A model generated the notes under the pieces. The model was given only the letters and a program-made list of their open reading frames with translations. It did no database searches and was not told the origin of the DNA. The position numbers were made by a program, and so were the translations under genes. A stretch of DNA of 52,859 nt, taken from positions 1-52,859 of IMG/VR virus record IMGVR_UViG_3300011114_000478; one strand, given 5' to 3'. Every line of letters starts with the position of its first letter. The first letter of the stretch is position 1. The stretch comes from a virus. Positions 3,877 to 36,467 of the stretch are shown here, piece by piece.

Positions 3877-4011
3877 ATGACTCGATTAGAACTGATTGCA
3901 GAAATTTGCAAACGCATGGCGGACGATTTAAAAGAAGACAATGACCGCGCTGAAGAAAAAGAACAACAAAGAGAAGCGCAAAAGAAAATGGATGACGATG
4001 AGATTTATTGA
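3877..4011 (+). CDS. Small charged protein before the methyltransferase
   Basis: A 44-codon gene with GGGAG just upstream, lying between the 3875 stop and the methyltransferase start. The product is a short helix-forming protein rich in Glu, Asp, Lys and Arg. It overlaps the methyltransferase start by 14 bases. Translation coupling is plausible; function is unknown. Confidence 0.5.
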   Translation: MTRLELIAEICKRMADDLKEDNDRAEEKEQQREAQKKMDDDEIY

Positions 4012-5077
4012 ACTGTTCGCAGGTATTGGTGGCTTTCGCTTAGGGTTGGAACGCGCAGGTCACCAATGCGTTTGGTCTAACGAGATCGAAGATAAAGCGC
4101 GTCGCATATACAAACACAATTTTAAGGACACACCCGATGGAAGAGACGTTAGAGATATTGAACCCGAAGAGATCCCCGATGCAGACCTCCTTGTTGGAGG
4201 ATTCCCATGTGCAACTTTCTCCGTTGCAGGTCGCCGTACAGGTTTCTCTACAGACGATACAAGAGGAACTCTCTTCTTTGAAATCTGCCGAATTGCTAAA
4301 GCAAAACGAATACCATATCTTTTCCTTGAGAACGTCAAAGGATTGCTTAATCACGACCATGGAAGAACTTTTGGAGTCATCCTCGCTACGTTGGATGAAC
4401 TTGGGTATGACGTACAATGGGAATGTGTTAACAGCAAGAATTTCGGAGTCCCGCAGAATCGGGAACGAGTATTTATTGTCGCAAATCTTAGAGACAGAAC
4501 CCGACCAAAAGTATTTCCTATCGGAGAGTGCTATGCAACGGATGGTGGATCGTGCGCAGAAACACAAGGAGAAGGGGAACGGGTTTCAACAAACTATTTA
4601 CCAACGCTCGACGCACACTACTATAAAGGCGGTGGAACTCGGGCAGTCATCGACGAATCAGCAGGACATGTTCGAACAACTCAATGGAGACGAACACACT
4701 TCCGAGACATAAAAGGGAACTACACACCAACGTTGACAGCTAACATGGGTACGGGTGGTAACAATGTACCTTACGTTGAAGTGAAAGCTGTACTTACTCC
4801 ACAGCGCGAAGAGAAAAGACAAAATGGTCGACGCATCAAAGAACACAATGAGCCGTCATTTACAATCACAGCACAAGACAGGCACGGAGTCATCGTAGGA
4901 CAGAAGTTAAGAAAGCTTACACCACTCGAATGCGAACGCTTGCAGTCATTGCCTGATAATTGGACGAAGTGGTATGACGATGGATCGCTCGTATCTGATA
5001 ATCAGCGCTATGAGCGTTGCGGTAGAGCTGTGACGATTAATGTTATTCACGAAATAGGAAAGAGGTTACCACTATGA
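3998..5077 (+). CDS. DNA cytosine-C5 methyltransferase
   Basis: It transfers a methyl group from SAM to C5 of cytosine in a specific DNA site. The 359-residue protein shows the family motifs in order: FAGIGGFRLGLE (motif I, residues 7-18), GGFPCATFS with catalytic Cys71 (motif IV), ENV at 111-113 (motif VI), QNRERVF (motif VIII), a target-recognition region about 180-310, then LTPLECERLQSLPDNW and a C-terminal AVTINVI (motifs IX-X). All catalytic motifs look intact. Start 3998 is chosen because the family begins at this point; ATG 3992 is possible. No restriction enzyme is adjacent, so it is probably a solitary protective methylase working with ArdC. Confidence 0.93.
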   Translation: MRFIELFAGIGGFRLGLERAGHQCVWSNEIEDKARRIYKHNFKDTPDGRDVRDIEPEEIPDADLLVGGFPCATFSVAGRRTGFSTDDTRGTLFFEICRIAKAKRIPYLFLENVKGLLNHDHGRTFGVILATLDELGYDVQWECVNSKNFGVPQNRERVFIVANLRDRTRPKVFPIGECYATDGGSCAETQGEGERVSTNYLPTLDAHYYKGGGTRAVIDESAGHVRTTQWRRTHFRDIKGNYTPTLTANMGTGGNNVPYVEVKAVLTPQREEKRQNGRRIKEHNEPSFTITAQDRHGVIVGQKLRKLTPLECERLQSLPDNWTKWYDDGSLVSDNQRYERCGRAVTINVIHEIGKRLPL

Positions 5078-5715
5078 AGTCATGGAGTTTTGAATCAAGA
5101 GAAGTTGCAGACAAGTTTGATAAGCATGTAAGGGAACAGCTCCCATGGTATGACATGATTACAGACGCGGTTGTTTATATCGCGCGAAACTATTTGACTG
5201 AAGGTAATCGTATTGTTGACATCGGCGCATCGACAGGAAACCTATCACGCAAACTTTTACCACTTGCGAATGAGCGCAAAGGTAAAGTGTTAGCAATAGA
5301 AAAAAGTATGCCTATGATTTGCAAGATGGATGGCATGGAAGACGTAGGCGTGATCCATGGTGACGTGACTGAGATCGATATACCTGAAGCGCAAGTCTAC
5401 ATTTTATTTTTGACGATGATGTTTATACCCGTCGACAAAAGACAAAAGTTACTCGACACACTTCAAGACAAAGTGAAGGTGGGTGGATGTGTGATCATTG
5501 TTGATAAGATATGTGATCACAGTGGATACTTCTCAACGGTCATGAAGCGATTGACATGGCATTGGAAGATACAGCAAGGCGCGGAAGCTGAAGACATTAT
5601 CAATAAAGAGATGTCCCTTGCAGGCGTACAGATCCCGCTCGATAATTATTTTGTTGAGGATGCAAAACAATTTTTTAGGATGGGTGAGTTTGCAGGTTGG
5701 GTGATTGAATATTAA
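5074..5715 (+). CDS. SAM-dependent methyltransferase, CmoA-like
   Basis: A 213-residue class I methyltransferase with the SAM-binding motif IVDIGASTGNLSRKL near residues 46-60, an acidic loop KVLAIEKSMPM, and a later GGCVIIVDK strand. The overall look resembles CmoA, which modifies U34 of tRNA, starting with a PWYDMITDAV helix like that of CmoA. The substrate cannot be read from sequence. It starts in an ATGA overlap with the DNA methyltransferase, so the two are co-expressed. A small-molecule or protein methylase is an alternative. Confidence 0.75.
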   Translation: MKSWSFESREVADKFDKHVREQLPWYDMITDAVVYIARNYLTEGNRIVDIGASTGNLSRKLLPLANERKGKVLAIEKSMPMICKMDGMEDVGVIHGDVTEIDIPEAQVYILFLTMMFIPVDKRQKLLDTLQDKVKVGGCVIIVDKICDHSGYFSTVMKRLTWHWKIQQGAEAEDIINKEMSLAGVQIPLDNYFVEDAKQFFRMGEFAGWVIEY

Positions 5716-5727
5716 CTTGGAGGATTT

Positions 5728-5955
5728 ATGATTTTACTTACAGAAAAAGAAAGGCAACTTTTAAAAGAGTCAGCGAGCAACATAAGCATGCATGCATTTC
5801 AAAGGTTAGAACCTCATCAAAGGCGTGCGTATTGGGAAACGCTTGATCGAGCTATTCATTCGATTATGATGACGCATCCTGAAGCATTCAACTCAAAAGC
5901 TGTAGCTGACATGCATGAAAAAATGAAAAACAAACAAGCATACGCGAGGTATTAA
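5728..5955 (+). CDS. Hypothetical protein
   Basis: A 75-residue, mostly helical protein with a strong ribosome site (TTGGAGG at 5716-5722). It contains LEPHQRRAYWETLDRAIHSIMMTHPEAFNSKAV. No family is recognised. It lies one base before the following basic protein gene and probably shares its transcript. Confidence 0.65.
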   Translation: MILLTEKERQLLKESASNISMHAFQRLEPHQRRAYWETLDRAIHSIMMTHPEAFNSKAVADMHEKMKNKQAYARY

Positions 5956-6934: not shown

Positions 6935-7702
6935 ATGAAAACAGTACCATTCGCAGATTTACTTAAAGAAGCTGTAAACAAAGAAGGCGTGTTATCAACA
7001 TGCTACAGCCGATTCCACCAATACAGCATCGGCAATCAATTGTGGTTATGGGGACAAGCTGACGCACGCGGTGAGTGCCTAGGTCCCGTACAAACACTCA
7101 AACAATGGAATACGCTTGGTCGTGCAGTCAAGGCAGGTTCTAAAGCTTACTCCATGCTTATGCCTGTAACAGTTCCAAAGAAGGATGCCAACGGTAAGAA
7201 GATCGAAGGCAAGTTCTCTAAGTTCTTTATGCTCAAGAACTATTGGTTCACAGTGCATCAAACAGAAGGTGACGACTTCAAGGAAGAGACTATCATCCCT
7301 GAGTGGAACAAACAAAAAGCCCTCGAAAAGCTACTCATCAAAGAAAATACTTTTGAGCATGCTGACGGTAATTGCCAAGGTTACGCAAGCTTCCACAGCT
7401 TTGCTGTTAATCCCTTAGCTGTATTGCCACACAAGACAACCTTCCATGAGCTTGCTCACATTGTGTTAGGTCATACCACTGAGCACACCATGGCTGACTC
7501 TGAGATTACGCCAAAGGATATTCGTGAGGTAGAAGCTGAGTCAGTGGCTTACATCCTATGCTCAATCCTTGGCTTAGATGGTTTAGTCGAGTCACGCGGT
7601 TACATTCAACATTGGTTGAAGGATAATCAGATCGACGATAAGTCAGCACAAAAGATATTCACTTGTGCTAATACGATCCTTAACGCAGGAAAGGTAGCAT
7701 AA
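6935..7702 (+). CDS. ArdC-like antirestriction protein
   Basis: ArdC proteins bind single-stranded DNA and shield incoming DNA from host restriction. This 255-residue protein has the ArdC layout: an N-terminal domain (YSIGNQLWLWGQ, WNTLGRAVKAGSKAY) and a C-terminal zincin-like domain with HELAH at about 171-175 and a downstream EVEAESVAYIL helix that supplies the third metal ligand. AAGGGG lies just before the start. Expressed from the early promoter at 6551, it would act as DNA enters the cell, alongside the C5 methyltransferase. A true protease function is possible. Confidence 0.88.
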   Translation: MKTVPFADLLKEAVNKEGVLSTCYSRFHQYSIGNQLWLWGQADARGECLGPVQTLKQWNTLGRAVKAGSKAYSMLMPVTVPKKDANGKKIEGKFSKFFMLKNYWFTVHQTEGDDFKEETIIPEWNKQKALEKLLIKENTFEHADGNCQGYASFHSFAVNPLAVLPHKTTFHELAHIVLGHTTEHTMADSEITPKDIREVEAESVAYILCSILGLDGLVESRGYIQHWLKDNQIDDKSAQKIFTCANTILNAGKVA

Positions 7703-11931: not shown

Positions 11932-12076
11932 ACTAGACGAAAAGTTATACATATGTAAAACATGTAAGCGCACTGAAGACGAGATAGCAAGTTGGTTAGA
12001 TTACACACCAAGCGAACGCAAAGCTGTAATGAAACGCATCAAGGAACGAGATGGGCGTAGCAAAAAAAATAATTGA
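11894..12076 (+). CDS. DUF1289-family Cys-rich small protein
   Basis: A 60-residue protein with TPCKQICELDEKLYICKTCKRTEDEIASW followed by PSERKAVMKRI, the signature of DUF1289. Four cysteines in a CxxxC and CxxC arrangement could bind iron or zinc. The family is common in proteobacteria and its function is unknown. AGACATGG context lacks a strong ribosome site. A phage copy between terL and the 1220-residue gene is unusual. Confidence 0.75.
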   Translation: MAKIATPCKQICELDEKLYICKTCKRTEDEIASWLDYTPSERKAVMKRIKERDGRSKKNN

Positions 12077-15000
12077 GGGTGGATTAAAGGCGGTCGCTAA
12101 GAAAGCGCCACGCATGTCTGAAGCACTCGAACCTCACATTGGTAAACGCTTATATATTACGCAAGCGGATCGTACAGCACTTGACTATCCACAAGGTTTA
12201 CTCGGAGGACCAGGCTATACGGAACTAGCAAGCATTGATCCTAAATACAAAGACATCGCATGGGCTGTGCAAGGACCAGGCGTTGCAAAGACTCTTGTAG
12301 GTTCAATGGCGCGCAATCCTGAAGAAGCTGTATTCGCAAACCTTATTGGATCACCCGAACAACACAGATCAAACAAAGTCGTCTTCGATAAGATTATGGA
12401 TCGCTTTCAGAAAGCGATAGAAGAAGACAAGCTCACACCCGAACTACATAAGACGATTAACAAACGCTTAGCTAACATCAAAGATCCAAAGACAGGTAAG
12501 TCATTCTTTCCTGAAGACGTAGACATTCTATCCCCTGAGTTCGAGCAACACGCAAACACCTTCCATCAACGCGCATTCATTGCTGACGTGTTAGCAGGTA
12601 AAGGTGTCGGTGGTCGCAAAGGTACGATCATTGATTACCCACAAGTTATAAAAGAAACCACTGACCCGTTATTGCTAGAAGCAAAGACAGGCGACATCGG
12701 TGACAGACTATTCTCGTTATCAGGCAACATTGAATACAGACCTGAATTACATCCTGCATTCCATACATCGTTAGGTGGTCGCAAAGAATCCGAAGCTTTC
12801 GCACCTGCTCCACAAGGTATTGTGATGAAAAACTTTATCAAAGACTTTACAGAGCGAACAGGTCGCATGCCAACCTATTACGACTTAACACGCGGATATG
12901 CACCAAGCGAAAAGATTACACAGGAAATGGTTGAGCGCATGTACAAAGAAGGTTACGGCGCAGGTGGTAAGGTTCTCAAAAAAGGATTGAAACTTATAGA
13001 AGACGTTGCAGAGAAAGTTAAGTTGCCTCCCGCAGAGAACTCAGCACGCACACAAATTGTAGGTACGATGCCGACATACGAAAAGGCACGCGACATACTA
13101 AGCAAAGAAGGTATTGAAGGTAAAGACGTTATAGACTTCGGCGCAGGTAAAGGTTTAGGTTCAACCATGATGAAGGCGCATTCATTCGAGCCATATCCAC
13201 AGGGTTGGTATCCAACGTACACCAAGTCAGAAGACATTCCTTCCAATGCATACAAAGGCTTGCTCAATCTTAATGTATTGAACGTCCTTGATCCTGAAAT
13301 GCGTGCACACACAGTTAAAGAGATTGGTCGTGTTATGCAACCCGAAGGTGGCACAGGATTAATCACAACACGCGGTCGTGACGTTATGAATACAATCGGT
13401 GGCGTAAAAGGTCCTGAACCAATGTCAGTGATTACTTCACGCGACACATATCAAAAAGGATTCGAACCTAACGAACTCCGTGAATACATCAAATACATAC
13501 TAGGTACTGACTTTGAATACGAACCACTAAACCTAGGTCCCGCAGGTGTCAAGATCAAGAAGAAAGCTGAAGGCGGAACTATATCTGACGACGCTGAAGA
13601 GTACGGCGAACAACTCAAAGAAAGACGCAAGACACTTGGTAGCGACATCCTCAAGTCAGGCGCAAAAGGAATTAAAGAAGGATTAGGTAACATCTATCAA
13701 AGCGCTAAAGAAACATTGTCACGCGCAGGTACTATCGGTGACATCGTAGAAGGTTATGGTAAGTACGGCGCACCAATGGAAAGAGCAAGATACGAAGGCA
13801 TTACAGGTACAAAGCTTCCTGAAATAAAACCTGTACCTTACTTGCGCGAACAAACAATTACAGAATCACCTGTAGGTGCAAAGATAATGCCACTTACCAC
13901 AGGCGAACAACAATTTGCAGGTGAGATTATTGGTGACCCACTTTCTTATTCAGTGTCAGGCGCAGGTCGTGGACTTGAAAAGTTTGGTAAGTTTGTTGGT
14001 AAAGGCTTAGCTGAACAAGTGCAAACAGGTAAAGGTCTCATTGGTCGCAACGTCATCAACCCACGCATGAATGTCATCAAAGACCAAGGTGGTATGTTAG
14101 TCGGTGGTGAGAAAGCTTTAGATGATGAGCTAATAGCAATGAAGAAAAATGAAGCCGCATATCCTCACGCACAAGCAAACTTTACTACAGACCAAAAAGA
14201 TCCTAATGCTGTAGCTCTTAACAATTGGATTGATACCAAGGTAAAAAAATACTTACGCAATCAAGCAGGATCAGAAGCCGACCCAATACTTAAAACAATT
14301 GAGTCAGGCGTAGAACATAATTTCCAACCAACTATGGGTGACACTAAATACAGCGTAAGAAATAAACGACTTAAAGTTGGTAAACCTGAAACAGGTATTG
14401 CTAAAACAGATTTGGGCAAAGAGTTTGAGTACAAAATTGATTCAATGTTTGATCCTCATAGCTCCGAAGAAGTTAAAGCAATTTTAAATGACCCGCTTCC
14501 TTTTGCTGATCCAAACACAGCAGAAAGATTTAGAGCTTCAAAACTTAGAACTGAGCATGATCTTCCTATTGAAAACGAAAAAGATGTTAAGGCACTTAGG
14601 TTGCTTAATGAAATTCCCGACAAGAATATATATACATTAAGTGGTACAAACATTACAGAACGTCTAGGTCTCAATCATGTATCCGATGTTTTATATGAAG
14701 ACTTAATGTCAGGCAAGTTAAAACCTGAACAACTAAATCAAATGTCTATTGAGAAAGCTATCCGTCGCACCGCAGAGTATGACGCACAAAAAGCTCGCGA
14801 AATGCAAAAAGCTCATGCAACTTCAATTGAAGGATTCCCTGTTCCTAAAGCATATGAAGACAAATACAAATGGGTAGAACTTAAACACGAAACAGATCCA
14901 AAGAAAACAGCGGCAGCGCTCAAATCAGAAGGTGAGATGATGGGTCACTGCGTTGGTGGCGGTGATTATTGTTATGATGTTGAACATGGAACAGCTAAGA

Positions 15001-15713
15001 TATTTTCACTAAGAGGTCCTGATGGTAAATCACATGTCACTATTGAAGCAAGACCACACTATAGTGCACAACGATGGTACGAAGCAAACGCCGATCTTAT
15101 AAATAGCGATCCATATTTAAAAGAGATTGAGTCAAATGTAGCGATTGGTGACATTGACGCTAAGTATGGAAACAATCCAAGCACTGATGCAGATTATGTT
15201 CGCATCATGTCAAAAGAAATGAAAAGAAAAGGTATTAACCCTGTTGAACCCGCAGGTTACATGAATATTCATCAGATTAAGGGAGGAAAAAACCACCGCC
15301 CTGAGGAAAGATACCAAAAATATATTTCAGACTTTATTCAAAATAATCCTACTAAACATGAAATTGTTGATATACATGAATTAGACAACACAAATCTTAT
15401 GAGCGTGCAAAATATAGCTGACACAGGATTGGTGCCAAAAGACATTCATTTTCATCCTGATGTATTAAAAGCTACAAAAGCAAGAAATCCTAAATACCAT
15501 TATGGCATGTCAGAAGATCAGGAAGAAATGAGATATGACTTATTTAAAGAAGTCGCAAGAGATTTAGCAAGACAAGGTAAGAACTATCTTGACAAAGACG
15601 ACATTCTTAATCACCTAAGAGAAAAATATTTACTACCGAAAAAGAAAAGCGGTGGTTCTATCAACCTAAACCAAGAATATAAACTAGAAAACATGAGGAG
15701 ACGTTATGGCTGA
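12051..15713 (+). CDS. Giant composite protein with methyltransferase-like and PcfJ-like domains
   Basis: A 1220-residue protein between terL and the portal. Residues about 340-490 look like a Rossmann methyltransferase (GKDVIDFGAGKGLGS, LLNLNVLNVLDP, GTGLITTRGRD). Around 958-985, GHCVGGGDYCYDV and AKIFSLRGPDGKSHVTIE match the PcfJ-type domain known from conjugative plasmids and phages. Lys/Gly-Gly motifs occur at about 507 (KKAEGGTI) and near the C-terminus (KKSGGSI). The start has AAGGA 5-6 bases upstream and overlaps the previous gene. It could be a virion or injected effector protein; function is unknown. Confidence 0.8.
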   Translation: MGVAKKIIEGGLKAVAKKAPRMSEALEPHIGKRLYITQADRTALDYPQGLLGGPGYTELASIDPKYKDIAWAVQGPGVAKTLVGSMARNPEEAVFANLIGSPEQHRSNKVVFDKIMDRFQKAIEEDKLTPELHKTINKRLANIKDPKTGKSFFPEDVDILSPEFEQHANTFHQRAFIADVLAGKGVGGRKGTIIDYPQVIKETTDPLLLEAKTGDIGDRLFSLSGNIEYRPELHPAFHTSLGGRKESEAFAPAPQGIVMKNFIKDFTERTGRMPTYYDLTRGYAPSEKITQEMVERMYKEGYGAGGKVLKKGLKLIEDVAEKVKLPPAENSARTQIVGTMPTYEKARDILSKEGIEGKDVIDFGAGKGLGSTMMKAHSFEPYPQGWYPTYTKSEDIPSNAYKGLLNLNVLNVLDPEMRAHTVKEIGRVMQPEGGTGLITTRGRDVMNTIGGVKGPEPMSVITSRDTYQKGFEPNELREYIKYILGTDFEYEPLNLGPAGVKIKKKAEGGTISDDAEEYGEQLKERRKTLGSDILKSGAKGIKEGLGNIYQSAKETLSRAGTIGDIVEGYGKYGAPMERARYEGITGTKLPEIKPVPYLREQTITESPVGAKIMPLTTGEQQFAGEIIGDPLSYSVSGAGRGLEKFGKFVGKGLAEQVQTGKGLIGRNVINPRMNVIKDQGGMLVGGEKALDDELIAMKKNEAAYPHAQANFTTDQKDPNAVALNNWIDTKVKKYLRNQAGSEADPILKTIESGVEHNFQPTMGDTKYSVRNKRLKVGKPETGIAKTDLGKEFEYKIDSMFDPHSSEEVKAILNDPLPFADPNTAERFRASKLRTEHDLPIENEKDVKALRLLNEIPDKNIYTLSGTNITERLGLNHVSDVLYEDLMSGKLKPEQLNQMSIEKAIRRTAEYDAQKAREMQKAHATSIEGFPVPKAYEDKYKWVELKHETDPKKTAAALKSEGEMMGHCVGGGDYCYDVEHGTAKIFSLRGPDGKSHVTIEARPHYSAQRWYEANADLINSDPYLKEIESNVAIGDIDAKYGNNPSTDADYVRIMSKEMKRKGINPVEPAGYMNIHQIKGGKNHRPEERYQKYISDFIQNNPTKHEIVDIHELDNTNLMSVQNIADTGLVPKDIHFHPDVLKATKARNPKYHYGMSEDQEEMRYDLFKEVARDLARQGKNYLDKDDILNHLREKYLLPKKKSGGSINLNQEYKLENMRRRYG

Positions 15714-26214: not shown

Positions 26215-26787
26215 ATGATATTTATTTCAAGAAAAGAAGCTAAAGAAAAAAAACTTGCAAGATATTTTACAGGAAATGCTTGTAAGCACGGCCATATAAC
26301 TGAAAGAGCAACTAGAAATGGCGAGTGCCTAGGTTGCGCACACATTAGACTAATTGATTGGAAAAAAAACAATAAAGAATATGTATCTTTATATCAAAAA
26401 AAATATAAAGAAAATAATAAAATAAATGAATATGAAACAAGAAAAAAATGGTTTGAATTAAATCCTGAAAAAAAAGAAAAACATAGGCTGTTAAAAAATA
26501 AATGTACATCTATATGGAATAAAAAACATAGAGATAAAAGAAATGCAAATTTAGCAAATTATAGATTTACAAAAATTAAAGGAACGCCTAATTGGCTAGA
26601 TGTAACACAAAAAGTTGAAATAGATGCTATTTATTTATTTTGTGATGCATTAAAAAAATGTGGATTAAACTATCATGTTGATCATATTATTCCTTTGAGG
26701 GGTAAAAATGTTAACGGTTTGCACGCTCCTTGGAATTTACAAGTGATCCATGCGACTGAAAACATAAAAAAAGGTAATAGAATATAA
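26215..26787 (+). CDS. Freestanding HNH homing-type endonuclease
   Basis: A 190-residue protein with an N-terminal zinc-finger-like CKHGH plus ECLGC (residues 23-41), a Lys-rich middle and a C-terminal HNH site (YHVDHIIPLRGKNVNGLHAPWNLQVIHATENIKKGNR). Such genes are mobile and spread by cutting DNA of related phages. It is visibly more AT-rich than neighbours and lacks a clear ribosome site. It sits between the adaptor and a zinc-ribbon protein and overlaps the latter by one base. Confidence 0.85.
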   Translation: MIFISRKEAKEKKLARYFTGNACKHGHITERATRNGECLGCAHIRLIDWKKNNKEYVSLYQKKYKENNKINEYETRKKWFELNPEKKEKHRLLKNKCTSIWNKKHRDKRNANLANYRFTKIKGTPNWLDVTQKVEIDAIYLFCDALKKCGLNYHVDHIIPLRGKNVNGLHAPWNLQVIHATENIKKGNRI

Positions 26788-30660: not shown

Positions 30661-32073
30661 ATGGCACAAGCAGGTTATACCCCAATACAACTTTACTACA
30701 GCACAACCGCGTCAGCAACGCCGTCAGCAGGCAATCTTGTCGCGGGTGAGTTAGCGCTCAATACGCTTGACGAAAAGCTATACTTTAAAAATAGCTCAGG
30801 CACTGTAAAGCTATTAGCTTCTGTTGCTTCTACGACTAACGTAGCTTCTATTTCTTTTGGCTCAACAGGATTAACACCATCAACTGCAACAACAGGTGCT
30901 GTAACAGTCGCAGGTACTTTAGCTGTTGCTAACGGTGGTACGGGCATTACAGCTTTTGGTACGGGTGTTGCAACCGCTTTAGGTCAAAACGTATCAGGTT
31001 CAGGAGGTATTGCTTTAACAACATCCCCTGTATTTACAACACCTAACTTAGGTACACCAAGTGCTGTGACTTTAACAAACGCAACAGGCTTGCCATTAAG
31101 CACAGGTGTCACAGGTACATTAGGTATTAGTAGCGGTGGTACAAACATCACAACTTACACAACAGGTGATATTCTTTACGCATCCGCATCTAACACACTA
31201 GCTAAGTTACCTATCGGTTCATCAGGACAACTTTTATCTGTATCAGGTGGTGTTCCTGCTTGGTCAGCGGCTCCTTCTACAGGTTTAACCGTAGGTACAA
31301 CATCGATTACAAGCGGTACAAGCGGATACATTCTTTATAACAATGCAGGTGTTCTAGGTAATTTAGCAACGACAGGTTCAGGCTCTGTAGTGCAAGCTAC
31401 TTCACCAACACTTGTAACTCCCGCATTAGGAACTCCAACATCAGGTACATTAACAAGCTGTACAGGTCTTCCATTATCAACAGGTGTGACAGGAACTCTT
31501 CCTGTAGCAAACGGCGGTTCAGGTAGAACAACCAATACAGCATATGCTGTTATTTGTGGTGGTACAACCGCAGGTGGAGCAGAGCAATCTATTGCTTCCG
31601 TAGGAACCGCAGGTCAAGTATTAACATCGAACGGCGCAGGTGCATTACCAACATTCCAAACCGCGGGCGGATCAAGTTTCCCCGCAGGAACTCGTATGTC
31701 ATTCCAACAAACATCAGCACCAACAGGTTGGACTAAAGACACAACAGCGGCAATTAACGATTCTATTTTAAGATTGGTAACAGGATCTGTAACTACAGGC
31801 GGTACAACAGCATTCTCAACATGGAATGCTCAAACAGCATCAGGTGCTACAACGCTTTCAATATCACAGATGCCAAGCCATGATCACCCAGGAAATCAAT
31901 ATAACAATGGTGACGCTGCTGGTCCTGAAACAGGAAATTATAGCGTAAACAACACGAATAATATTTTTTCAGGTTCTGCACGCGTTTTTGCTCAAGGCGG
32001 TGGTGGCTCCCATACCCATTCGCTAACACAGTCTCTTAAATACTATGACTTTATTATTGCAAGTAAAGACTAA
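30661..32073 (+). CDS. Second tail fibre protein with collar-like C-terminal domain
   Basis: A 470-residue protein. Its start ([45 protein letters not shown]) is like phage fibre N-termini, the middle has [25 protein letters not shown]-type repeats shared with the upstream fibre, and from about residue 340 it has a collar-type domain ([18 protein letters not shown]..., [19 protein letters not shown]). The His-rich end is typical of receptor-binding or collar proteins. AAAGGA lies upstream. Confidence 0.85.
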
Positions 32074-32288
32074 TGGATGAACCAAAAGTTATTTGTCCAT
32101 TAACACAAAAAACATTAGAACAATCATGCCCAACATGTAATTTTGTAGTTATTGAAGATAATCAAATTACAGGATGTGCAATTAGAAAAAATATTAGAAG
32201 AATGATAGAAAATACAAATTTAGCAAAAGAAACATTTGATTCATTTATAAACTTTAAAAAAAATATGCAGTCTTATGGCAAAAATTAA
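32073..32288 (+). CDS. Small Cys-rich protein, paralogue of the next gene
   Basis: A 71-residue protein with VICPLTQ and CPTC plus a further Cys, possibly metal-binding. Its C-terminus (NLAKETFDSFINFKKNM) aligns with that of the next protein (KVNRETGSAIESFRNEM), so the two may be tandem paralogues. TAATG-coupled to the fibre gene. Role unknown, perhaps fibre assembly. Confidence 0.6.
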   Translation: MDEPKVICPLTQKTLEQSCPTCNFVVIEDNQITGCAIRKNIRRMIENTNLAKETFDSFINFKKNMQSYGKN

Positions 32289-32619
32289 TAAAGTCATTTG
32301 CCCTATTATAAATGACGAATGTATTGAAGATGGATCAATACGAAATGGTGAGTTAGTAGCTTGTAAATTTTGGGTTAAGTTAGCGGGAAAAAACCCACAA
32401 ACAGGAGAAGACATCAATACAGGCAATTGCTGTTTAAATTGGATGCCTATGTTACTAATTGAAAATAGTAAAGTCAATAGAGAAACAGGATCGGCTATTG
32501 AATCATTTAGAAATGAAATGGTTAAATCCAATGAAGTTACACAACAAATTCTTTTAACAACCGCAGGATTACCTGCTAATAATTTAATAGAGGTAAAAGA
32601 TGAAATTAACAATAATTAA
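32275..32619 (+). CDS. Small Cys-rich protein, second paralogue
   Basis: A 114-residue protein starting KINKVICPIINDEC, with ELVACKFW and GNCCLNWMP, giving five cysteines. The pattern KVICP at the start and the helix at the end match the previous protein, with an extra middle part. It overlaps the previous gene by 14 bases and the next by 20. Function unknown. Confidence 0.6.
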   Translation: MAKINKVICPIINDECIEDGSIRNGELVACKFWVKLAGKNPQTGEDINTGNCCLNWMPMLLIENSKVNRETGSAIESFRNEMVKSNEVTQQILLTTAGLPANNLIEVKDEINNN

Positions 32620-32902
32620 AGACGATGGCGCCGTCTATAAAGATGGAAAATCTTATGCAGGTCTTGATTTAAATCAAATACCTTCAGATGTTCATGCATT
32701 GCAATGGAATAATGGAAGCGGACATATTGAATTTGTCAACAATATAAAAGTTAATGAAAACATTAATGAGATTCCATCATGGGCTAATGATGCTTTATCC
32801 GCATGGCAAATTGCTTACGATGTAGAGCAGGCGGAAATTGCTAGATTGCAAGCTGAAGCAGAGGCAAAAAAATTAGCTAAGCAACAAGCGCAAGTAGTTT
32901 AA
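32600..32902 (+). CDS. Fibre-associated protein of unknown function
   Basis: A 100-residue protein. The first part (MKLTIIKDDGAVYKDGKSYAGLDLNQIPSDVHALQWNNGSGHIEF) resembles small phage proteins found after tail fibres that I recall. The C-terminus is an Ala/Glu/Lys-rich helix (EQAEIARLQAEAEAKKLAKQQ). AGAGG precedes the ATG. It may be a fibre-assembly chaperone or a minor fibre part. Confidence 0.65.
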   Translation: MKLTIIKDDGAVYKDGKSYAGLDLNQIPSDVHALQWNNGSGHIEFVNNIKVNENINEIPSWANDALSAWQIAYDVEQAEIARLQAEAEAKKLAKQQAQVV

Positions 32903-32912
32903 TAATCTGTAA

Positions 32913-33491
32913 ATGAAAATTAAAACAACGTACAAAAATTTTATAGGTATTTACGAAAACATATTTCCCAAAGAAGAATGCGATTTAATAATTCAAAAGT
33001 TTGAAGACGAATTAAAAAATGGCTGTGATGAAGATGGGCTAAATACAGATCCCAAGCAAGAGCTAGGAAGGCACACTTCTTCTATTTTTGCTATGGAAGA
33101 TAGGCTTCCTGAAATTCGCCACAAAATAAATGAAATTTTAAATGTGTGTGCAGAACAATATGCAAAAGAGTACTTTACTATAAAACAGCTTAAATTGTCA
33201 TCTGAACATATAAAATTACAAAAAGTTCCACCAAAAGGCGGTTTCCATGTTTGGCACTGTGAACAAGCAAATGTTAAATACGCAACTAGAGTATTAGTTT
33301 GGATGATTTACCTTAATGATGTTCATGACAACGAAGGTGAGACAGAGTTTTTATTTCAGGGATTGAGAGTTAAGCCAACCGTAGGAACTGTTGTATTTTT
33401 CCCTGCATCATTTACCCACACGCACAGAGGAAACCCTGTTTACTCCTGCAATAAATATATTGTAACGGGTTGGTATACTTTAACTGAATAA
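32913..33491 (+). CDS. 2-oxoglutarate/Fe(II)-dependent oxygenase
   Basis: Such enzymes hydroxylate a substrate using 2-oxoglutarate and iron. This 192-residue protein has H115-x-E117 in WHCEQ, a strand pattern RVLVWMIYLNDV, a GTVVFFPASFTHTHRGNP block with the second His (169 or 171), and a nearby Lys near 181 for 2-oxoglutarate. The H-x-E pair replaces the usual H-x-D; I recall this WH-x-E pattern in marine phage oxygenases. It starts the modification cassette. The substrate is unknown. Confidence 0.8.
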   Translation: MKIKTTYKNFIGIYENIFPKEECDLIIQKFEDELKNGCDEDGLNTDPKQELGRHTSSIFAMEDRLPEIRHKINEILNVCAEQYAKEYFTIKQLKLSSEHIKLQKVPPKGGFHVWHCEQANVKYATRVLVWMIYLNDVHDNEGETEFLFQGLRVKPTVGTVVFFPASFTHTHRGNPVYSCNKYIVTGWYTLTE

Positions 33492-33976
33492 TGAAATACT
33501 CTATATTTCATACCTCAAGATGTGGCTCTACATTACTATCTTGCTTATTAAGTAAATCAATTCCAACTTTAGCTGAACCATCTTGGGCTTGCCAACCAAT
33601 AGATCAAATTAATTTTGATAGCAATCATTTAGATGAGCATTTAGTTAAATATCCAAGTAAAGCTTTTCAAATAATTCCATACATAAATAGTAAAATAGTT
33701 TTTTTATATAGAAATTTTGACGACCATTTAAAAAAATTAGAATCTGTTAGAGAGATAAATAGACAAGAAGAAGCGCTTTTATGGTCATCTAGGTTTTTTT
33801 ACGCAACTCAAGCAGAAGATATAATATTCATTGAAAGTAACTACTTTTTAAATAATCAAAAAGAAACTTGCCAATTAATATGTAATTATTTTGGAATTGA
33901 ATACAAACCCGTTGAAATAAATTTTCATGTAAAAGATGCAGGTTTTAATTGTAAAGATAACATAATAAAAATATGA
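33491..33976 (+). CDS. Sulfotransferase-like protein
   Basis: A 161-residue protein starting KYSIFHTSRCGSTLLSCLL, which matches the PAPS-binding 5-prime-phosphosulfate loop (SRxGSTLL), then KIVFLYRNFDDHLKKLES, which matches the 3-prime-phosphate-binding RN-x-D motif, and DIIFIESNYFL with an NYFGIE end. Cytosolic sulfotransferases are usually 250 or more residues, so this is a compact form. It lies between two oxygenases and one gene before an APS kinase that could supply its PAPS. TAATG-coupled to the oxygenase; visibly AT-rich. Confidence 0.7.
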   Translation: MKYSIFHTSRCGSTLLSCLLSKSIPTLAEPSWACQPIDQINFDSNHLDEHLVKYPSKAFQIIPYINSKIVFLYRNFDDHLKKLESVREINRQEEALLWSSRFFYATQAEDIIFIESNYFLNNQKETCQLICNYFGIEYKPVEINFHVKDAGFNCKDNIIKI

Positions 33977-34539
33977 AAAATACAAAATTAGAAGATTATA
34001 TTTATATAGTAAAAAATGCACTTAGCAATGACCTGTGCGATGAAACATTAAAAGAATATAAAAATACTTATGAATGGAAAGCGACAGCTGTTGGAATGGG
34101 GAATATAAAAACAGACACAAGAAATTGCCAAAAAATATACATTTCTGATCAAGTTACAATTCAAAAAAATAAAGAAGTTAGAAGTAATTTGGATAAATAT
34201 ATATTTGATGGAGCATCAAAATGTATAAACGAATATAATGAAAAATTTATTCACTGTAGGGTTCAACAAGATAGTGGATACGAACTATTAAGATATTCAG
34301 AAAATTGTTTTTACAAACAACATGTTGATTCTTTTAAAGAACATCCTAGATCTGTATCATGCTCATTTATTCTAAATGATGATTTTGAGGGTGGTGAATT
34401 TGCATTTTTTGATAGAGAATTAAAGTACAAATTAAAAAAAGGCGATGCTCTTATGTTTCCTTCTAACTTTATGTATCCTCATGAAGTAATGCCTGTGACA
34501 AAAGGAACTCGATACTCAATTGTCACTTGGTTTATATGA
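33973..34539 (+). CDS. 2-oxoglutarate/Fe(II)-dependent oxygenase, prolyl 4-hydroxylase-like
   Basis: A 188-residue oxygenase with H117-x-D119 in HVDSF, a second His near 170 (YPHEVMP) and an Arg near 180 (GTRYSIVTW) for 2-oxoglutarate, in the order of prolyl 4-hydroxylases. SVSCSFILNDDFEGGEF is typical of the fold. It is a second, divergent oxygenase next to the first. It overlaps the sulfotransferase gene by four bases and the APS kinase start. Confidence 0.85.
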   Translation: MKNTKLEDYIYIVKNALSNDLCDETLKEYKNTYEWKATAVGMGNIKTDTRNCQKIYISDQVTIQKNKEVRSNLDKYIFDGASKCINEYNEKFIHCRVQQDSGYELLRYSENCFYKQHVDSFKEHPRSVSCSFILNDDFEGGEFAFFDRELKYKLKKGDALMFPSNFMYPHEVMPVTKGTRYSIVTWFI

Positions 34540-34961
34540 AAATACTTATCATGGGTTTGTCAGGAAGTGGCAAATCCGAGTTAGCTAAAGAACTACACAG
34601 TTTGTTTCAAAATGACGAAAGGTCATCGATTCGCATTAATGGCGATGAGGTAAGAGAAGCCAACAACGATTGGGACTTTAGCCCTGAAGGTCGTATAAGA
34701 CAAGCCGAAAGAATGGCAAAGTTAGCCAAAAAAAGCGAAGCTGATTACGTCATAGCTGATTTTATAGCTCCTACCAAACAAATTAGAGACATTTTTAGTC
34801 CTGATATGTTAATATGGCTCGACACAGTAAGGTCAAGTAAATACACCAATACTGATGTTGTTTTTCAAAACCCAACAAATTATGCGTTTAAAGTAAAGAA
34901 AAAAGACGCTAAAAAGTGGGCATTGACTATTTATAATTTTATAAACAAAAAGGAGAGATAA
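34536..34961 (+). CDS. cysC: Adenylylsulfate (APS) kinase
   Basis: APS kinase converts APS plus ATP to PAPS, the donor used by sulfotransferases. The 141-residue protein starts MKILIMGLSGSGKS, with the P-loop at about residues 7-14, followed by RINGDEVREANNDWDFSPEGRIRQAERMAKLAKK, which matches the CysC signature (DGD-x-VR, F-S-x-R). IADFIAP is the strand and lid region. It is shorter than full CysC by tens of residues. Start 34536 is chosen because it forms an ATGA overlap. It needs APS from the host or elsewhere, as no ATP sulfurylase is in the window. Confidence 0.85.
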   Translation: MKILIMGLSGSGKSELAKELHSLFQNDERSSIRINGDEVREANNDWDFSPEGRIRQAERMAKLAKKSEADYVIADFIAPTKQIRDIFSPDMLIWLDTVRSSKYTNTDVVFQNPTNYAFKVKKKDAKKWALTIYNFINKKER

Positions 34962-35144: not shown

Positions 35145-35312
35145 ATGTCTCAGCAACAAATTAACGAGGTTGATCATCGTCTAACTACTCACGAAGAAGT
35201 TTGTGCGCTGAGATATGAAGCTATTAACGCAAGACTGAAAAGATTAGAAGGAATCCTAATGGCATCAGCAGGCGCCATTATTCTTTTGCTACTTAGTATT
35301 GTTTTAAAATGA
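35145..35312 (+). CDS. XhlA-like single-pass membrane protein
   Basis: A 55-residue protein with a charged N-terminal coiled-coil part (NEVDHRLTTHEEVCALRYEAINARLKRLEG) and one C-terminal hydrophobic helix (MASAGAIILLLLSIVL). This resembles haemolysin XhlA-type phage lysis accessory proteins. It is ATGA-coupled to the next gene, another membrane protein. It probably assists the holins. Confidence 0.6.
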   Translation: MSQQQINEVDHRLTTHEEVCALRYEAINARLKRLEGILMASAGAIILLLLSIVLK

Positions 35313-35581
35313 ACATGGAAAAAATAACATCTTTGTTATTTCCTGTAATCGTATCAGCGATTGCATGGTTACTTACATCCATGTCTTCGATGCAAGCAGA
35401 TCTTATTGACATCAAGTCAAAGATGCCTGCTTTAATTACATCTCAAGGCGTGCCTACAGATAGTCCTGTGTCAGCAGAAGCAAGAGCTAAACTTAAAGAA
35501 GAATTAAGGTCACAAATGGCTGAGCTTAATGTCCGTATTAGAATTCTTGAAGAGCATGACGCTCAAAGAAAAGGTAAATAA
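35309..35581 (+). CDS. Holin-like or lysis accessory membrane protein
   Basis: A 90-residue protein with one N-terminal hydrophobic helix (LLFPVIVSAIAWLLTSM), then a charged helical part (SAEARAKLKEELRSQMAELNVRIRILEEHD). Position between two membrane proteins and a lysozyme suggests a holin, antiholin or spanin-type partner. No lipobox is visible. Confidence 0.55.
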   Translation: MNMEKITSLLFPVIVSAIAWLLTSMSSMQADLIDIKSKMPALITSQGVPTDSPVSAEARAKLKEELRSQMAELNVRIRILEEHDAQRKGK

Positions 35582-36048
35582 TGTTTAGTGCTCTATTCTC
35601 ATTTTTAGGTGGATCTGTCTTCCGCATGATATGGGGAGAAGTTTCAGCCGCTTGGACAAAACACCAAGATCATAAACATGAATTAGAGTCCATGAAGCTT
35701 CAAGCTGATTTAGAAAAGGTAAAACATGATCAAGAAATGGAAAGACTTAAAGTCTCTGCTGAATTGCAAATTAAACAAGTTGAAGTTATGGCTGATGCAG
35801 AAGTGGAAAAACTTGATGCAGAAGCTTTTATAGCCGCGCAAAAGACAGTCAATCAATCAACAGGTAATAAATACATTGATGCATGGAACGGCGCTATCAG
35901 ACCTGCTTGTGCTACTACAGCATTACTTGTATGGTGGTTTTGCTTATATACGCAAGGATTTGTATTAACAGAGTGGGATAAAGAGCTTGTAGGTGTCATC
36001 CTAGGCTTTTATTTTGCTCATAGAGTATTTAGCTCAAGAGGTAAATAA
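35581..36048 (+). CDS. Holin, GTA 3TM-type
   Basis: A 155-residue protein with an amphipathic coiled coil (MKLQADLEKVKHDQEMERLKVSAELQIKQ), then WNGAIRPACATTALLVWWFCLYTQGFVL and a second hydrophobic segment (LVGVILGFYFAHRVF). The N-AIRP start and the layout match the 3TM holin family I know from gene-transfer agents and phages. It should make the membrane lesions that let the lysozyme out. TAATG-coupled to both neighbours. Confidence 0.78.
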   Translation: MFSALFSFLGGSVFRMIWGEVSAAWTKHQDHKHELESMKLQADLEKVKHDQEMERLKVSAELQIKQVEVMADAEVEKLDAEAFIAAQKTVNQSTGNKYIDAWNGAIRPACATTALLVWWFCLYTQGFVLTEWDKELVGVILGFYFAHRVFSSRGK

Positions 36049-36467
36049 TGACCGCTTTAGAGCTTCTTATCAAGCTTATAAAGCGTTTTGAGGGATGTAA
36101 GTTAAAGGCTTATTATTGCCCTGCAGGTGTACTTACTTGCGGTTGGGGATCAACAGGAAAGGACATATTACCGAATACTGTATGGAGCCAAGAGTATGCC
36201 GATAAAAGACTTATGCATGATGCTGTGCATTTTTTAAAGGCAACACAAAAATTATGTCCTGATTTAGAGGGTGAACAGTTAGGTGCTATAGCAGATTTTG
36301 CTTACAATTTAGGCATAGGTCGGTTAAAATCAAGCACATTAAGAAAGAAACTTAACGAGGGTGATTTTCAATCTGCCTCAAGAGAATTAAAAAAATGGGT
36401 TAATGGTGGCGGTAAAAAGCTAAATGGTCTTGTAGTGAGACGGGACGCTGAAGCCGAATATTTATAG
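36048..36467 (+). CDS. Endolysin, GH24 lysozyme
   Basis: A 139-residue muramidase that cuts peptidoglycan at host lysis. The catalytic pattern is visible: Glu15, then Cys24 after eight residues, then Thr30 after five more, the E-8-C/D-5-T spacing of phage 21/T4-like lysozymes. FAYNLGIGRLKSSTLRKKLN and a C-terminal VVRRDAEAEYL are the usual helical body. No signal-anchor helix is present, so it needs the holin. TAATG-coupled to it. Confidence 0.92.
   Translation: MTALELLIKLIKRFEGCKLKAYYCPAGVLTCGWGSTGKDILPNTVWSQEYADKRLMHDAVHFLKATQKLCPDLEGEQLGAIADFAYNLGIGRLKSSTLRKKLNEGDFQSASRELKKWVNGGGKKLNGLVVRRDAEAEYL

Follow-up and report, generated by a model that had tools for sequence, protein, structure and literature searches.

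The described systems closest to this locus are the PAPS-dependent sulfotransferases, the APS kinases and the auxiliary genes of phages. PAPS-dependent sulfotransferases (Sulfotransfer_1/3, tyrosylprotein and heparan 3-O-sulfotransferases) are proteins of 250-300 amino acids with a glycine-rich 5'-loop, an acidic residue after the loop and an arginine on the 3'-phosphate strand. Sulfotransferases and shikimate kinases are P-loop relatives. In the APS kinases (CysC, PF01583) we take the contacts to APS to be Arg66, Phe75 and Arg80 of the Penicillium enzyme. Genes of the same classes as those reported here (cysC, sulfotransferase and 2OG oxygenase) are known among the sulfur and 2OG auxiliary genes of phages (PMC10914622, PMC10580990, PMC11561400), where they are treated singly, as separate genes, and the function of the phage sulfotransferases is stated to be unclear (PMC10580990). 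Phage cysC-like genes are usually assigned to sulfur assimilation. The kinase described here instead tracks with sulfotransferases and almost never with PAPS reductase, and auxiliary genes that had lacked an explanation can thereby be arranged into a single pathway open to testing. Open-licence full texts yielded no description of the cassette as a whole, or of the bacterial gene trio that resembles it, although this does not prove that none exists.

The cassette lies in a 52,859-base IMG/VR virus record, IMGVR_UViG_3300011114_000478, from a virus of bacteria; the whole of this stretch is referred to as the window. Four overlapping genes on the plus strand make up the cassette (32913-34961), which sits between tail-fibre and lysis genes. 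They encode a 2OG-Fe(II) oxygenase (oxygenase 1, 32913-33491, 192 aa), a sulfotransferase-like protein that we refer to as CGST (33491-33976, 161 aa), a second, PKHD-like 2OG-Fe(II) oxygenase (oxygenase 2, 33973-34539, 188 aa) and an APS-kinase-like protein (34536-34961, 141 aa). The listed open reading frame of the kinase begins at a TTG at 34527, but the ATG at 34536 is preferred, giving 141 aa and a 4-base overlap; with this start the four genes are coupled by overlaps of 1, 4 and 4 bases, as the initial annotation had described. It had also called the cassette AT-rich, and the GC content is indeed 30.8% compared with 39.7% for the contig, with 1.4% of stretches of equal length being as low. 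The conserved small genes 5' of the cassette are similarly AT-rich (24-35% GC), so that AT-richness does not mark the edges of the cassette and composition alone is no proof of recent import. Consensus scans for promoters and terminators stayed at chance level. The gene order is repeated in independent contigs, and the arrangement of the cassette is therefore not due to chance.

Both oxygenases score above the 2OG-FeII_Oxy_3 (PF13640) cut-off of 27, oxygenase 1 with 45.5 bits and oxygenase 2 with 68.3 bits. The H-x-E motif proposed for oxygenase 1 (phrog_61) is present in the translation as H115-C-E117, with K181 at the usual 2OG-binding position, and the H-x-D motif proposed for oxygenase 2 as H117-V-D119, together with H170 and R180. 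Oxygenase 2 has weak similarity to PKHD-type hydroxylases. In L001 and L002, too, CGST is immediately preceded by the oxygenase 1 gene, and the gene between CGST and the kinase is a 2OG oxygenase in the window, L004, L005/L100 and L098.

By sequence the assignment of CGST as a sulfotransferase is weak. Alone, the 161-aa protein scores 12 bits to Sulfotransfer_3, below the Pfam cut-off, and a sequence search found no match among PDB sequences or annotated phage records. Profile searches of viral contigs gave a CGST family of 36 contigs, and Sulfotransfer_1 is matched by 8 of 29 CGST relatives (best 6e-7). The initial annotation had singled out 33491-33976 for structure prediction, and the AlphaFold2 model (pLDDT 96.1, pTM 0.91) has a sulfotransferase-type fold, with the bacterial sulfotransferase 3rnl ranked first by Foldseek (E 2.6e-5) and the human tyrosylprotein sulfotransferase TPST1 ranked first by VIA-align (Z 12.2, 3.1 Å over 150 residues). 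Fold and relatives thus back a call that the single sequence makes only faintly. Shikimate kinases come next in VIA-align with Z 11.8, less than 1 from the best sulfotransferase, and for this reason a tyrosine acceptor, as nearness to the tyrosylprotein sulfotransferases might imply, was not accepted.

Across 29 aligned CGST sequences the FHTSxCGST loop, E29, K53, S56, W98 and K148 are invariant, and the loop reads FHTSRCGST in the window. CGST resembles the PAPS-dependent sulfotransferases in its fold, its glycine-rich 5'-loop (CGST), the acidic residue after the loop (E29) and the arginine on the 3'-phosphate strand (R74, kept in 25 of the 29 sequences and lost in 4). It differs from them in having 161 aa rather than 250-300, with a very short acceptor region, and in two features of the PAPS site. 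The loop Lys/Arg is not conserved, position 10 of the 5'-loop being Arg in the window and mostly His, but also Gln, Phe or Leu, in the relatives, and the 3'-phosphate Ser is absent, 28/29 sequences having Lys at this position eight residues after R74. We therefore use only the label "sulfotransferase-like" and do not regard CGST as a proven sulfotransferase.

The kinase matches APS_kinase (PF01583) with 46.6 bits, covering only positions 5-90 of the 152 in the profile, and its score of 38.9 bits against the curated apsK model TIGR00455 is below the cut-off of 138.7. It has a Walker A motif (GLSGSGKS, residues 7-14), and its AlphaFold2 model (pLDDT 94.9) aligns with APS kinases in VIA at Z 18.9, with 1.8-2.0 Å over 140-141 residues; gluconate kinase is the next group at Z 14.9, and all of the best 50 Foldseek matches are APS kinases. 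R40, F48 and R53, equivalent to Penicillium R66, F75 and R80, are invariant in 34 relatives, and Y104 takes the place of F165, so that the stacking aromatic is kept. The 141-aa phage kinase differs from genuine bacterial APS kinases in the deletion of 19 residues from the lid, where the RDxKGLYxKAR segment is gone, and in two substitutions, N83 being replaced by Q and D61 by N. The lid deletion is found in every phage kinase aligned except L069, which has an unrelated insert. The initial call of an APS kinase is therefore borne out by fold, Walker A motif and APS-contact residues, but not by the lid segment or the curated apsK model: the phage kinase seems capable of acting as an APS kinase, but judged by its lid it does not qualify as a true one.

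Several phage kinases of this family are fused C-terminally to a small HIGH-motif nucleotidyltransferase (GRWQPWHxGH...ISATKIR) that is nearest to NMN adenylyltransferases in NCBIfam (L045:78-848, L059:5001-5786, L080:4998-5801, L082:5001-5804, L090:5001-5804, L091:3307-4167, L207:3992-4729 and L208:4001-4732). In L119-L121 and L034 the nucleotidyltransferase is a separate gene after the kinase, and L119-L121 have CGST, kinase and NMN-adenylyltransferase-like enzyme in a row. It was considered as a minimal ATP sulfurylase, an idea dropped for lack of support given the closer NCBIfam match to NMN adenylyltransferases; it could be a candidate for an activation pathway that has yet to be described.

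The association of the kinase with CGST was assessed in 26 CGST loci that had been dereplicated and were not cut by a contig end. The kinase lies no more than 590 bases downstream of the CGST gene in 20 of these, usually with a 4-base (ATGA) overlap. Near the other six, five of which belong to one clade, no member of this kinase family is present, and these loci could draw on host PAPS. Between the window and L015 the kinases are 95% identical and the CGST proteins 46%, while between L097 and L098 the kinases are 51% identical and the CGST proteins 91%. The two genes have thus been swapped independently, yet they stay together, and the retention of a partner while sequence is exchanged suggests that a diffusible metabolite links kinase and CGST.

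Ordinary sulfotransferases accompany members of the kinase family as well, including the fused forms. Among 41 dereplicated phage records with the kinase but without CGST, 18 contain a Sulfotransfer_3 protein, compared with none of 50 controls, which were related phages picked by an anchor gene and lacking the kinase in the same search; as the controls come from one broad phage group and many records are fragments, the Fisher value of 4e-8 is a guide. The Sulfotransfer_3 genes are mostly 2-4 kb from the kinase. The absence of ATP sulfurylase from the contig, pointed out at the start, was confirmed, and none scored above the cut-off in 41 records (the contig and 40 relatives). In the phage locus L041:550-5456, sulfotransferase, methyltransferase-like, glycosyltransferase-like and carbamoyltransferase genes lie 5' of the kinase, and about 10 of 39 kinases have a carbamoyltransferase-like protein in their neighbourhood.

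When bacterial genomes were scanned with the CGST alignment, four Prochlorococcus single-cell genomes proved to have homologues that stand alone, with no kinase of the phage family nearby. These homologues (L209-L212, about 5001-5760 in each) have 244-255 aa, and the one in L210 lies amid chromosomal genes. Longer relatives were found in the same scan in Bacteroidota and one alphaproteobacterium. A further search across the Bacteroidota gave five genomes with an APS kinase, an aspartyl/asparaginyl beta-hydroxylase (PF05118) and CGST in a row (L231:69-2376, L232:1105-3363, L233:1105-3296, L234:166-2358 and L237:2609-4918, L235 and L237 being one genome), and in two others (L214 and L236) the hydroxylase alone is adjacent to or near CGST. 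A search of Flavobacteriaceae for bacterial relatives over the whole length gave only one close homologue. The phage and bacterial CGST families align with 98.6% probability in hhalign (E 8e-16) and have the FHxSxCGST, E, K, R, K signature in common.

The Bacteroidota operon therefore resembles the phage cassette in having a homologous CGST with the same invariant residues and a 2OG oxygenase and APS kinase side by side. It differs in that its APS kinase is full-length (138 bits, with a full lid), its hydroxylase is of the Asp/Asn type (PF05118, AspBH) and its CGST protein is 320 aa long and carries an additional N-terminal section, unlike the 161 aa of the phage protein. That three matching predicted activities have been assembled from different family members is the best evidence for a combined role in hydroxylation and sulfation, and the bacterial trio offers a way of testing this in culturable hosts.

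The interpretation that we favour, and hold to be somewhat better than an even proposition, is that the four genes form a compact module for hydroxylation and sulfation that draws on host APS. The kinase would phosphorylate host-made APS to PAPS, the probable shared metabolite, and CGST would pass the sulfuryl group of PAPS on to an acceptor whose hydroxyl is put in place or prepared by either or both of the 2OG oxygenases, hydroxylation presumably preceding sulfation. The acceptor may be a protein or peptide side chain, a suggestion that comes only from the Asp/Asn-hydroxylase partner in bacteria; a tail fibre is one candidate, but the tail-fibre and host-sugar targets are both guesses. The part of the initial proposal that the genomic context strongly supports is that kinase, sulfotransferase and 2OG oxygenase act together. 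Sulfation near receptor-binding genes could bear on phage recognition or on the alteration of cell surfaces. Counting against the full module are the loss of the kinase lid, the changes at N83 and D61, the score below the apsK cut-off, the PAPS-site residues of CGST, the Z score of the shikimate kinases, the CGST loci and Prochlorococcus homologues without a kinase and the fusions to NMN-adenylyltransferase-like domains. A more specific and distinctly tentative version is that APS kinase, 2OG hydroxylase and CGST as a minimal sulfotransferase form an undescribed pathway, present in bacteria and streamlined in phages, that sulfates a hydroxylated protein side chain, such as one of a tail fibre. 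On this version the phage "cysC" genes of this kinase family would serve sulfation and not cysteine assimilation.

It might instead be that kinase and CGST make and use PAPS but that the 2OG oxygenases have nothing to do with them, being cargo at a variable site flanked by the fibre and the lysis genes. At least one 2OG oxygenase is present in 29 of 29 CGST records, compared with 16 of 50 control phages (Fisher 3e-10), and this argues against cargo, even if those 16 show that related phages without CGST also carry such genes. The slot is taken by different oxygenase families whose position relative to the kinase-CGST pair varies, and 2OG oxygenases are common among phage auxiliary genes (PMC11561400), both of which would be expected of cargo; in the separate bacterial operon, however, CGST again has a 2OG enzyme as its partner, there a hydroxylase from a different family. 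We consider this explanation unlikely.

Quite improbable too, in our estimation, is that the shortened-lid kinase phosphorylates another nucleotide or metabolite and that sulfate is not what CGST transfers or binds. The 19-residue lid deletion, the changes at N83 and D61, the score below the curated cut-off and the non-canonical PAPS-binding residues of CGST would all fit such a role, and this alternative is kept open mainly because of the fused or adjacent NMN-adenylyltransferase-like enzyme, the fusions raising the possibility of other roles in the kinase family at large. Against it stand the retained equivalents of R66, F75 and R80 with the stacking aromatic Y104, and the unrelated ordinary sulfotransferases that occur with members of this kinase family, among them the fused forms. 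A sulfur-assimilation set, in which the kinase feeds PAPS to a host PAPS reductase for cysteine, would follow the reading of phage cysC genes as assimilatory sulfate reduction (PMC10914622, whose genes possibly belong to another family), but was rejected for the present kinase family as very improbable since proteins of the PAPS reductase/CysD family are nearly absent (1 of 42 kinase records, and none in the contig), ATP sulfurylase exceeds the cut-off in 0/41 and sulfotransferases are enriched. A role in sulfation fits these counts.

Returning to the cassette in its genomic setting, its position beside the tail fibres was as first described: a fibre-like gene with low-complexity repeats (30661-32073, plus strand), which has homologues 5' of the cassette in relatives and lies outside it, is followed by three conserved small genes (32073-32902, plus strand; 71, 114 and 100 aa) and then by the cassette. 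The three small genes, which come after the last fibre gene and before the cassette, anchor the insertion site, and profile searches matched them to no family of known function. Their order is kept in L001, L002, L006-L009, L012, L054 and others, and the 114-aa gene is common to phages including cyanophages and a Roseobacter phage. The downstream flank (35309-36467, plus strand), also kept in relatives, encodes small proteins of 90 and 155 aa and a lysozyme-type endolysin; 35581-36048 matches phrog_6637, and the endolysin (36048-36467, Phage_lysozyme 121 bits) ends the lysis block. In relatives the same flanks hold varied contents, namely various 2OG oxygenases, CGST, the kinase, or none.

The window has the order of its packaging and head genes in common with a phage from Manatee Spring, the terminases being 64% identical. 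Elsewhere in the window there are a DNA (cytosine) methyltransferase-like gene (3941-5077), a protein with an N-terminal ArdC-type antirestriction domain and a zincin-like part (6935-7702), a 1220-aa protein (12051-15713), encoded between the terminase and portal genes, that has a PcfJ-like domain and, immediately 5' of the fibre genes, an HNH/endonuclease VII-like open reading frame (26215-26787).
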